Positions 40,221-42,788 of a stretch of 64,000 bases of DNA are shown piece after piece (position 1 is the first letter of the stretch; every line of letters begins with the position of its first letter). The DNA is from Spirochaetaceae bacterium. Its GTDB lineage: Bacteria; Spirochaetota; Spirochaetia; Treponematales; Treponemataceae. A program made the translations under genes and the position numbers. The notes under the pieces are model-generated. The model worked only from the letters and a program-made list of their open reading frames with translations, was not told the DNA's origin and made no database searches. The stretch is from contig JAGAAX010000029.1 in the NCBI GenBank assembly GCA_017614995.1, positions 62,001-126,000 of the forward strand, written 5' to 3'.

Positions 40221-40922
40221 ATGGTACGAACGACTACCGACATGAACAATGCTGTTGGCGCAGCTTCTTTGTCCGGTGTTCCTGCTGTTGAAACAGGTCT
40301 CTGTAAAGAGCACATGATGCACAGACGCGGCATTTTGATGAGAAGCCGCGTCATTTCTCTCCGCAAAGAAATATTCAGAAAATCAATTCATTTGTGCACA
40401 GCTTTTGTGCCGCTTATGCTTCATTATTTGTATGGTCTTACGATTGCAGGCTTGTTTTCGGTGCTTGCCGTTTACATAATCTCTGAAATTTTAAGGCTTA
40501 ACGGCAGAAATGTTCCTGTTTTTTCGGCAATAACTGAAGCTGCTGCAAGAAAGCGCGACGAAAACCGCTTTGTTCTCGGTCCTGTAACTTTGTGCTGCGG
40601 CGTTTTGGTTTCAGCCTTGTTCTTTAACGAAACAGCAGCCGCTGTCGGCATAATCGGGCTTGCGGCAGGCGACGGCTTGGCAAGTCTTTTCGGCAAAATG
40701 TTCGGCGAGGTGAAAATTCCGTTTACCGGCGGAAAATCTGTCGTCGGCAGTCTTTCGTGCTTTGGCGTAATATTTCTGCTCTCAAGTCTTATTACAAACA
40801 ACACTGCGGCTGGTCTTGTCTGCGGTTTTGCCGGCATGTTCGCCGAAATGCTTCCTCTAAAAGATTTTGACAATCTCCTCATTCCAGTCGTTTTGTCAGC
40901 AATAGTACAATTCTGCTTCTAG
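40221..40922 (+). CDS. Dolichol/phytol-kinase-like membrane protein (CTP-dependent lipid kinase family)
   Basis: A soluble N-terminus of about 45 residues followed by six or so membrane spans. The family motifs are GLAAGDGLASLFGKMFGE and TGGKSVVGSLSCF, as in the cytidylyltransferase/phytol-kinase/Dgk1 group that phosphorylates lipid alcohols or diacylglycerol with CTP. The lipid substrate cannot be read. The ATG at 40221 follows a GGAG site. It stands alone ahead of the pur operon, which has its own promoter. Confidence 0.82.
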   Translation: MVRTTTDMNNAVGAASLSGVPAVETGLCKEHMMHRRGILMRSRVISLRKEIFRKSIHLCTAFVPLMLHYLYGLTIAGLFSVLAVYIISEILRLNGRNVPVFSAITEAAARKRDENRFVLGPVTLCCGVLVSALFFNETAAAVGIIGLAAGDGLASLFGKMFGEVKIPFTGGKSVVGSLSCFGVIFLLSSLITNNTAAGLVCGFAGMFAEMLPLKDFDNLLIPVVLSAIVQFCF

Positions 40923-40951
40923 TTCAAGCAGAGCTTGCGGAATAGACCCAC

Positions 40952-40980
40952 TTGAGTATTATGCTTGTTTGTGATATATT
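40952..40980 (+). promoter_or_regulatory. Promoter of the pur operon
   Basis: TTGAGT (40952), 17-base spacer, TATATT (40975). It puts the transcript start at about 40987, exactly at the 5' edge of the purine riboswitch. Confidence 0.7.
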
Positions 40981-40987
40981 CCGTTAT

Positions 40988-41091
40988 CGACGGCTCATAT
41001 AATCTTATTAAAGGTAGGTTTTCTTCTCTCCTCATTCCTGCCTGGGAATAAGAGTTTCTACCTGGCTTCCCTAAAGCCGGACTATGAGTCG
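40988..41091 (+). promoter_or_regulatory. Purine (guanine-class) riboswitch with enlarged L2
   Basis: P1: CTCATA..TATGAG, with outer CGAC/TCG pairs. Junction strings TATAAT, AGTTTCTACC and GGACTATG match the purine aptamer. P2 is TCTTATT/AATAAGA; P3 is TGGCTT..AAGCCG. The nucleotide equal to position 74 is C (GACTATG), which specifies guanine/hypoxanthine rather than adenine. The L2 loop is about 36 nt, with an extra helix GGTAGG/CCTGCC before the conserved GG. It would switch off purE-purM-purN when guanine is plentiful. The expression platform is not clear; a T7 run follows at 41094-41101. Confidence 0.88.
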
Positions 41092-41157
41092 CACCTTTTT
41101 TTGCGCTCGTGCAAAAGCCGCCGATTAAATTCGAATTTATGGTTTATGGGGTGTTGC

Positions 41158-41670
41158 ATGAAAGTTGCTGTCTTTTTTGGCTCAAAATCAGATACAGAAA
41201 CTATGAAAAAAGCTTCGGCTGTACTCAAAGAATTCGGAGTAGAGTATGAAGCTTTTATTTTGTCGGCTCACCGTTCTGGTGAATTGCTTGCACAGACTGT
41301 AAAAACAGTTGAAGAGCATGGCGCGGAAGTTATTATTGCCGGTGCTGGGCTTGCGGCTCATCTGCCGGGCGTAATTGCGTCCATGACGGTTCTGCCTGTT
41401 ATCGGAATTCCGCTTGAGTGCATGAGTGCCGACGCAAAAGGCCGCTCTTCTAACGGTCTTGGCGGAATGGACGCTCTGCTTTCGATTGTGCAGATGCCGC
41501 GCCAGATACCTGTTGCGACAGTGGGCATAAACAATGCCGCAAACGCAGCTTATCTTGCACTTGAAATTCTTGCTGTAAAAAACCCTGAACTTAAGAAAAA
41601 GCTTGTAGAGTTCCGCAAAAAGCTTGCTGAAGAATCTGCTGAAAACGGTGGCAGAGGCGTTGAGCTCTAA
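41158..41670 (+). CDS. purE: N5-carboxyaminoimidazole ribonucleotide mutase (class I PurE)
   Basis: Purine synthesis enzyme producing CAIR. It opens VAVFFGSKSDTETMKKA (phosphate loop), ILSAHRSGELL, AGAGLAAHLPGVIASMTV and GIPLECMSADAKG. These fit class I PurE, which works with PurK; no purK is seen nearby. From memory, T. denticola instead has a class II AIR carboxylase, so the two treponemes would differ. 170 residues. The ATG at 41158 with GGGGTG before it is used. First gene after the riboswitch. Confidence 0.92.
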   Translation: MKVAVFFGSKSDTETMKKASAVLKEFGVEYEAFILSAHRSGELLAQTVKTVEEHGAEVIIAGAGLAAHLPGVIASMTVLPVIGIPLECMSADAKGRSSNGLGGMDALLSIVQMPRQIPVATVGINNAANAAYLALEILAVKNPELKKKLVEFRKKLAEESAENGGRGVEL

Positions 41671-41714: not shown

Positions 41715-42788
41715 ATGATTGATTACAGACAGTCTGGTGTAGACATTGAAGAAGGCTACCGCGCTGTAGATAAATATAAAGCCCATGCAAAGCGCACACA
41801 GATTCCGGGCGTGCTTAACGGCTTGGGCAGCTTTGCCGGTATGTTTGCCGTTCCTGGCGGCATGAAAGAACCTGTTATGGTAAGCGGCACAGACGGCGTA
41901 GGCACAAAGCTTGATATCGCCTTTGCAATGAAAAAATACGATACAGTTGGAATTGACTGCGTTGCAATGAGCGTAAACGACATTCTCTGCACTGGCGCAA
42001 AGCCGCTCTACTTTTTAGACTATATCGCCTGCGGAAGCCTTGATTCTTCCATTGCGGCAGATCTTGTAAAAGGTGTTGCAGACGGCTGTGTTGATTCAGA
42101 CTGTGCGCTGCTTGGCGGTGAAACAGCAGAAATGCCTGGCTTCTACGACAAAGGCAAGTACGACATCGCAGGTTTCGGCGTAGGCATTGTAGACAAACAG
42201 AACATCATTACAGGTGAGGCTATAAAAGAAGGTGACGTTCTTATCGGGCTTTCTTCAACCGGCGTACACTCAAACGGCTTTTCTCTGGTTAGAAAGCTAG
42301 TAACAGATTTTGACACGCCTTTTAACGGCAGAAAAATCGGCGAAGTGCTTCTTGAGCCGACCCGCATTTATGTGCGCCCTGTGCTTTCAGTTCTTGAAAA
42401 ATTCAGAGAACATGGCGGTGCAAATGCTGTTCATGGCATGGCTCATATTACAGGCGGCGGCTTCTACGAGAATATTCCGCGTATGTATGCCGACAAGACG
42501 CTCGTTTCAGTAATCAAGAAGGGCAGCTGGGAAATTCCGCCGATTTTTGCTGAGCTTGAGCGCCGCGGTGCAGACCCGTCACGCATGTTCAACACATTCA
42601 ATATGGGAATCGGTCTTGTTCTTGCAGTTGAAGCAGACAAGGCTGACAATATCATAAAGTCATTTGAAGAATTTACTGTTTCATCTAATGCCGGTTTGAA
42701 CTCAACAATGAAGGCTTATAAAATCGGGCGCGTTGCACGTTCAGGCCAGAAAGTTGAGACACAGGAAGACGCAGTTATTTTTGAATAG
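41715..42788 (+). CDS. purM: Phosphoribosylformylglycinamidine cyclo-ligase
   Basis: Forms AIR from FGAM with ATP. It has YRQSGVDIEEGYRAVDKYK, GTDGVGTKLDIAF, DCVAMSVNDILCTGAKPLYF, LLGGETAEMPGFY, GLSSTGVHSNGFSL and AHITGGGFYENIPR. 357 residues, normal. AGGAG ahead of the ATG. It follows purE by 44 bases and runs into purN. Confidence 0.95.
   Translation: MIDYRQSGVDIEEGYRAVDKYKAHAKRTQIPGVLNGLGSFAGMFAVPGGMKEPVMVSGTDGVGTKLDIAFAMKKYDTVGIDCVAMSVNDILCTGAKPLYFLDYIACGSLDSSIAADLVKGVADGCVDSDCALLGGETAEMPGFYDKGKYDIAGFGVGIVDKQNIITGEAIKEGDVLIGLSSTGVHSNGFSLVRKLVTDFDTPFNGRKIGEVLLEPTRIYVRPVLSVLEKFREHGGANAVHGMAHITGGGFYENIPRMYADKTLVSVIKKGSWEIPPIFAELERRGADPSRMFNTFNMGIGLVLAVEADKADNIIKSFEEFTVSSNAGLNSTMKAYKIGRVARSGQKVETQEDAVIFE

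Follow-up and report, generated by a model that had tools for sequence, protein, structure and literature searches.

Within the window, i.e. the whole 64-kb stretch of DNA analysed here, a riboswitch heads the genes purE-purM-purN, with 67 nt separating the end of its P1 helix from the purE ATG (41158). The region 40975-41104 (+) matches the Rfam Purine family (RF00167, model positions 1-102) with 53.3 bits for a gathering cut-off of 37 (E 3e-06), and this is the sole gathering-level Rfam match within the window. The features of the locus are listed below with the evidence used to place them.

40952-40980, + strand: sigma-70-like promoter (TTGAGT, 17 nt, TATATT, with TG ahead of the second hexamer); motif scan
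40986-40995, + strand: inferred transcript 5' end and P0 5' strand AUCGACGGCU, overlapping the P1 5' strand; duplex energy, pair counts
40992-40999, + strand: P1 5' strand GGCUCAUA; RF00167 alignment, covariation count
41003-41009, + strand: P2 5' strand UCUUAUU; RF00167 alignment, covariation count
41010-41046, + strand: expanded loop L2, 37 nt; RF00167 alignment, leader comparison
41012-41043, + strand: inserted hairpin, stem AGGUAGG/CCUGCCU (41012-41018/41037-41043) with an 18-nt pyrimidine-rich loop; folding
41028-41034, + strand: CUCCUCA motif in the insert loop, anti-Shine-Dalgarno-like; conserved among leaders of genera g1, g18 and g20
41044-41046, + strand: kissing triplet GGG, L2 side, positions 36-38; leader comparison, covariation count
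41047-41053, + strand: P2 3' strand AAUAAGA; RF00167 alignment, covariation count
41054-41061, + strand: J2/3 GUUUCUAC, guanine-type pocket; RF00167 alignment, pocket comparison
41062-41080, + strand: P3 and L3; P3 strands 41062-41067/41075-41080
41069-41071, + strand: kissing triplet CCC, L3 side; faces GGG 41044-41046
41082, + strand: C74, the ligand-pairing cytosine of guanine-class aptamers; RF00167 alignment, pocket comparison
41083-41090, + strand: P1 3' strand UAUGAGUC; RF00167 alignment, covariation count
41117-41125, + strand: downstream element GCCGCCGAU, P0 3' strand and competitor of P1; duplex energy, folding, pair counts
41148-41153, + strand: Shine-Dalgarno (SD) region of purE, GGGGUG; sequence, folding
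41158-41670, + strand: purE, AIR carboxylase (PF00731, E 1.7e-56); start ATG 41158
41715-42788, + strand: purM, AIR synthase; domains PF00586 and PF02769
42789-43448, + strand: purN-like formyltransferase; PF00551

In the bacterial family of the window, RF00167 detected the aptamer in 16 of 274 genomes. A model designated R1, built from 15 of these 16 sequences (the canonical L002 was left out), extended the count to 24 genomes, in 23 of which the element precedes purE, the last one (G014) being a canonical switch upstream of another gene. PurE itself is present in 253 of the 274 genomes, so that most purE genes of the family have no detectable switch; none of 20 other purE leaders that were read exceeded 9.7 bits against R1 with filters off. 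Among named records, the leader occurs in MAGs of Treponema, Treponemataceae, Spirochaetaceae or Spirochaetales, several of which come from gut sources such as rumen or horse, judging by their titles. A pattern scan of viral contigs gave a single match, without the rest of the aptamer. A different regulatory RNA possibly occurs in one purE leader of genus g19 (L069 in G259), where TATCGGACAG with inverted repeats follows a TATAGT box; there, the purine aptamer is absent and no Rfam match was obtained at E up to 1.

The window promoter agrees with the consensus at 9 of 12 positions and was the one site found by a scan for which shuffled sequences gave a mean of 0.6. It ends 5 nt upstream of AUCGACGG, which begins at 40986, so that the transcript probably starts at this A or at an adjacent position. 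Across the relatives, a -10-like hexamer lies 4-5 nt upstream of ATCGACGG in 21 of the 23 leaders. Transcription termination was rejected for the window, as 40850-41250 contains no terminator-like site. Between P1 and the P0 element, the window has a linker hairpin (41094-41116, genus g1) with UUUUUUU and GCAAAAG, and in g18 and g20 relatives a run of U follows shortly after P1.

Pairing in the aptamer was scored on 23 leader cores (21 distinct) assembled by joining segments. In the three-way junction of P1, P2 and P3, 95.9% of cells are paired and 13 pairs show two-sided change, and the whole-aptamer covariation score of 0.545 (0.212 in shuffles) was reached by none of 500 shuffles and fell to 0.102 or less when slid. 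Pocket positions 20-23, 46, 47, 49-54 and 72-77 are invariant and of guanine type in all 23 leaders, including U22, U47, U51 and C74, a C at this last position specifying guanine. The original prediction of a guanine-class aptamer with C at position 74 is thus confirmed by the RF00167 score and by C74 at 41082 and, as far as sequence can tell, the window element is a guanine-class riboswitch by those defining features that were open to testing. Outside these positions, 13 of the 23 leaders (g17 and g20) have U for A24, and their top P2 pair 25-45 is A-C, A-U, G-U or G-C and not U-A; the J1/2 of these leaders recurs in other spirochaete families.

Enlarged L2 and its contact with L3

L2 of the Bacillus subtilis xpt aptamer has 7 nt. 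In the window this loop consists of AA, a hairpin (7 bp, terminal loop of 18 nt) and GGG running directly into the P2 3' strand, and the RF00167 alignment skips 35 nt there; an alignment free of insertion, which would have spoken against the enlarged loop, was not obtained. The loop had been predicted to be enlarged, to about 36 nt, and it is, although its exact length is 37 nt (41010-41046); the added stem was also correctly recognized, with six of its seven pairs named (GGTAGG/CCTGCC). The window hairpin folds at -8.6 kcal/mol, with a z of -3.75 relative to 500 dinucleotide shuffles.

The same enlargement recurs in 22 of the 23 purE leaders, as the suggested comparison with other treponemes revealed, with L2 ranging from 24 to 80 nt in four genera; the exception, L005, has an L2 of 9 nt. 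Since one architecture with unrelated insert sequences is found in these 22 leaders, the window insert is not a chance occurrence. An evenly drawn set of 384 genomes from the class contained 62 RF00167 matches; 57 of these lie outside the family, with a span of 97-102 nt in 56 and of 116 nt in one (G655). At order level, R1 matched seven leaders outside the family (L058-L064), and the six that were read (all but L061) have an ordinary L2. Because aptamers outside the family are of ordinary length, the long L2 appears to be special to the family of the window. One purE leader from another family (L064 in G420, reverse strand, ca. 1478-1640) has a long insertion in L3 and an ordinary L2, a mirror image of the window case.

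In the available portions of the sources, the L2-L3 kiss is described as critical to the purine aptamer fold (PMC3764141) and as made of two Watson-Crick G-C pairs with non-canonical minor-groove partners (PMC3764141, PMC5480868). The kissing triplets of the purE leaders were taken as the last three letters of L2 and the CC-plus-one of L3 (a trailing U being dropped in L016, L034 and L035). The two guanine-class pairs, G37-C61 and G38-C60, occur in 23 of 23 leaders together with a third pair, all three being Watson-Crick or G-U, so that 100% of the cells of the kissing helix are paired in the 23 core rows (21 distinct). Pairing of all 23 triplets was reached by none of 100,000 shuffles; the rule used to choose them (first CC in L3) partly builds in the two inner pairs, while the third is free of it. 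That third pair varies (G-C in 17 leaders, U-A in three, and C-G, A-U and G-U in one each). The L2-L3 contact, judged from this covariation, is therefore not only kept in leaders with an enlarged L2 but strengthened and conserved. L3 had been noted as unusual around CCCTA, and the explanation is that CCC is the partner strand of the third kissing pair. It had also been argued that the insert must be tolerated; this holds and can be extended, the insert lying just 5' of a triplet that forms three kissing pairs in every leader. As to the minor-groove partners A33-A66 and U34-A65, the 5' linker of L2 in the window is AA and U34 is not evident, position homology across the insert being one that cannot be set.

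The 22 predicted insert hairpins differ in sequence between genera, with a mean z of -1.84 (range -3.91 to 0.07). In genus g20 (five sequences) three stem pairs show two-sided changes and the score was reached by 2 of 500 shuffles, so that covariation supports the stem in this genus; in g1, the genus of the window (four sequences), 92.9% of cells are paired with two two-sided pairs, a result equalled by 87 of 500 shuffles. In the simplest inserts the hairpin 3' strand ends 0-2 nt upstream of the kissing triplet, a spacing that would allow stacking on the kissing helix. The insert would then most likely act as a peripheral brace stacked on that helix, and the third kissing pair would compensate for the upper part of L2 that has been lost.

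Helix P0 and the proposed control of purEMN

The 5' AUCGACGGC of the window leader lies on the 5'-end side of P0, opposite GCCGCCGAU, in a predicted duplex of -12.3 kcal/mol. An equivalent duplex, between the 5'-end AUCGACGGY and the downstream element, can be drawn in all 23 leaders with energies of -10.3 to -16.2 kcal/mol. Five of five leaders tried from another family, all without the L2 insert, also contain a P0-like duplex, at -17.5 to -22.7 kcal/mol. Over the 21 distinct rows, P0 pair 9-68 reads C-G in 11, U-A in seven, U-G in one and otherwise in two; position 9 is paired in P1 as well, and its covariation therefore serves both helices. None of 500 shuffles reached the P0 covariation score; its pairs with two-sided change (two) and further pair types (eight) are no better than in shuffles. 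At pair 5, 16 of the 21 distinct rows have no pair (an A-C mismatch or another non-pairing combination), four have A-U and one has G-C. The A-C mismatch conserved mid-helix in 16 of 21 leader cores, with A-U at this place in g20, perhaps tunes strand exchange.

P0 and P1 share 5'-strand nucleotides and consequently cannot both be complete at once. Folding, with energies that omit the kiss, the ligand and the co-transcriptional order, gives an energy gap between the P0 and P1 states of -3.0 to +6.3 kcal/mol, which could be tipped by ligand binding. Opening the stretch from SD to AUG is costlier with P1 forced than with P0 in 13 of 23 leaders, cheaper in three and within 0.5 kcal/mol in seven; the mean difference is +1.2 kcal/mol, with a Wilcoxon p of 0.005 that is optimistic because the 23 leaders are related. 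In the window the cost is 9.4 kcal/mol in the P1 state and 4.2 in the P0 state, a difference of 5.2 kcal/mol. An earlier calculation restricted to the SD core pointed in the same direction in g1 and g18 and mostly did not in g20. In g20 (L016, L031, L032, L034 and L035), the 3' edge of the P0 element reads GGUAAUCU and can base-pair with the opening codons of purE, AGGUUGCC, an arrangement that would place the SD in a hairpin loop.

These calculations suggest a translational OFF switch: as the SD-to-AUG stretch is harder to open in the P1 state, repression is predicted when ligand holds P1, which is the sense expected for a biosynthesis gene. With ligand bound, P1 would keep its 5' strand and the released downstream stretch would mask the start codon together with the ribosome-binding site; in the unliganded state, P0 would invade P1 from the 5' side and free both. 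Taken together, we regard it as probable that the element is a guanine-class riboswitch that switches off translation of purEMN when guanine or hypoxanthine is plentiful, by exchange between P0 and P1 and with the insert as a brace.

Other readings of the insert and relation to known riboswitches

A bracing role competes with the view, possible but on balance doubtful, that the hairpin is neutral, a variable insertion that does nothing more than leave the kiss undisturbed. Several riboswitch classes tolerate variable insertions, and stem-loops of this kind are described as generally accepted by riboswitches in the part of PMC2258182 available. Neutrality would also account for the high variability of insert sequences and lengths (L2 of 24-80 nt), for L005, which has no insert, and for the inserts of L003, L016 and L034, which fold no better than shuffled sequences (z -0.34 to 0.07). 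It fits less well with an insert kept in 22 of 23 leaders of four genera at the same site beside the kissing triplet, and with the retention of CUCCUCA in 15 of 15 leaders amid changing surroundings.

This motif raises the unlikely alternative that the insert is a second regulatory arm, whose CUCCUCA loop would dock as an anti-SD on the purE ribosome-binding site, itself often in a hairpin loop. The analogy is with the cobalamin riboswitch, in which a L5-L13 kissing loop hides the ribosome-binding site according to the accessible text of PMC2258182 and PMC10907184; the likeness resides in a C-rich loop within an arm of the aptamer, which could pair with an SD that is itself presented by a hairpin loop, whereas the aptamer is unrelated and docking is here a possibility with statistical support confined to g20. 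CUCCUCA occurs in all 15 inserts of g1, g18 and g20, which are otherwise dissimilar, and in none of the eight of g17. In the minimum-energy insert fold all its bases are unpaired in nine of the 15, and just the last base is paired in three more. It ranks within the best 2% of all 7-mers against these SDs, and the SD region is its best duplex partner within the leader in 11 of 15 cases, but in the other four it pairs best within L2 or with the P0 element or its edge. Cognate insert-SD pairs outdo permuted ones when all species are considered (p 0.005), yet not within genera (p 0.25). Four of five g20 inserts beat their shuffled versions (dinucleotide p 0.003, 0.033, 0.048 and 0.058), L016 being the exception (p 0.46); one pair reads A-U, G-U and G-C in the close species L032, L031 and L035, respectively, and in L035 the 7-nt loop of the SD hairpin, GGAGCAA, complements UUGCUCC of the insert. 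In contrast, the inserts of g1 (4/4) and g18 (6/6) pair with the SD no better than shuffled ones (p 0.07-0.86), and SD pairing does not account for the UCA with which the motif ends in g18 and g20. For the window, insert-SD complementarity does not go beyond chance (p 0.068 with dinucleotide and 0.245 with mononucleotide shuffles), and an anti-SD role in its genus g1 is not supported by the shuffle control. Pairing of CUCCUCA with the L2 start or the P1 3' strand was also considered and set aside, as it is seen in some species only and inconsistently. In the PurE tree, which has several open forks, g1 and g20 group together and g18 branches low, so that the motif may date back to the common ancestor and have disappeared from g17.

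On sequence comparison, the anti-SD reading of CUCCUCA is best treated as a lead, strongest in g20, where the insert loop may touch the SD in addition to the proposed bracing role of the hairpin. Quite unlikely, in our estimation, is the broader proposal that treponeme purE leaders have turned L2 of the guanine aptamer into a second output arm, with a hairpin stacked on a three-pair kiss and an anti-SD loop kissing the SD hairpin, which would combine 5'-strand exchange and cobalamin-style docking in one RNA. No purine riboswitch whose output relies on docking is known to us, and none turned up in our search of open-licence literature.

Finally, that the L2 change marks a ligand-switched variant (e.g. 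for 2'-deoxyguanosine, xanthine or 8-oxoguanine) is very improbable and was rejected because the pocket is invariant in 23 of 23 leaders: variants on the purine scaffold have indeed changed ligand (PMC9295807, in the portion available), and 13 of the 23 leaders, though not that of the window, depart from A24 and U25, but the switched variants described there alter junction residues or carry insertions in J2-3 and J3-1, U47, U51 and C74 are canonical throughout, and purE is a plausible guanine-class target. The original suggestion that the insert may alter ligand choice is accordingly not supported by the pocket positions read, which make a ligand change unlikely. The same portion of PMC9295807 reports natural junction variation in the guanine class and the occurrence of xanthine-II, guanine-II and 2'-dG variants only in Firmicutes; like these, the window element is a natural variant of the common scaffold, but its junctions are canonical and the change lies in L2.

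The preferred reading, a guanine-class switch with a braced L2, shares with Guanine-I (RF00167) the three-way junction, the guanine-type pocket, C74, the L2-L3 kiss and a purine gene downstream. It differs in its 37-nt, hairpin-bearing L2, in a three-pair kiss whose third pair covaries where two G-C pairs with minor-groove partners are usual (PMC3764141, PMC5480868, as available), and in a P1 whose 5' strand appears to be the site of invasion. Within the accessible text of open-licence papers, we found no L2 insertion or hairpin in purine riboswitches, nor an L2 that combines a hairpin with a covarying kiss of three pairs. The treponeme purE leader is a new structural variant of guanine riboswitches, with a hairpin in L2, and not a new kind of switch. 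As the purine aptamer is a model riboswitch, this family offers a natural experiment on its L2-L3 kiss, in which the splitting of the loop by hairpins (L2 of 24-80 nt) is accompanied by a third covarying kissing pair. It reveals a site at which the aptamer fold survives the grafting of foreign RNA, and its leaders allow strand exchange and a possible loop-to-SD contact to be compared.
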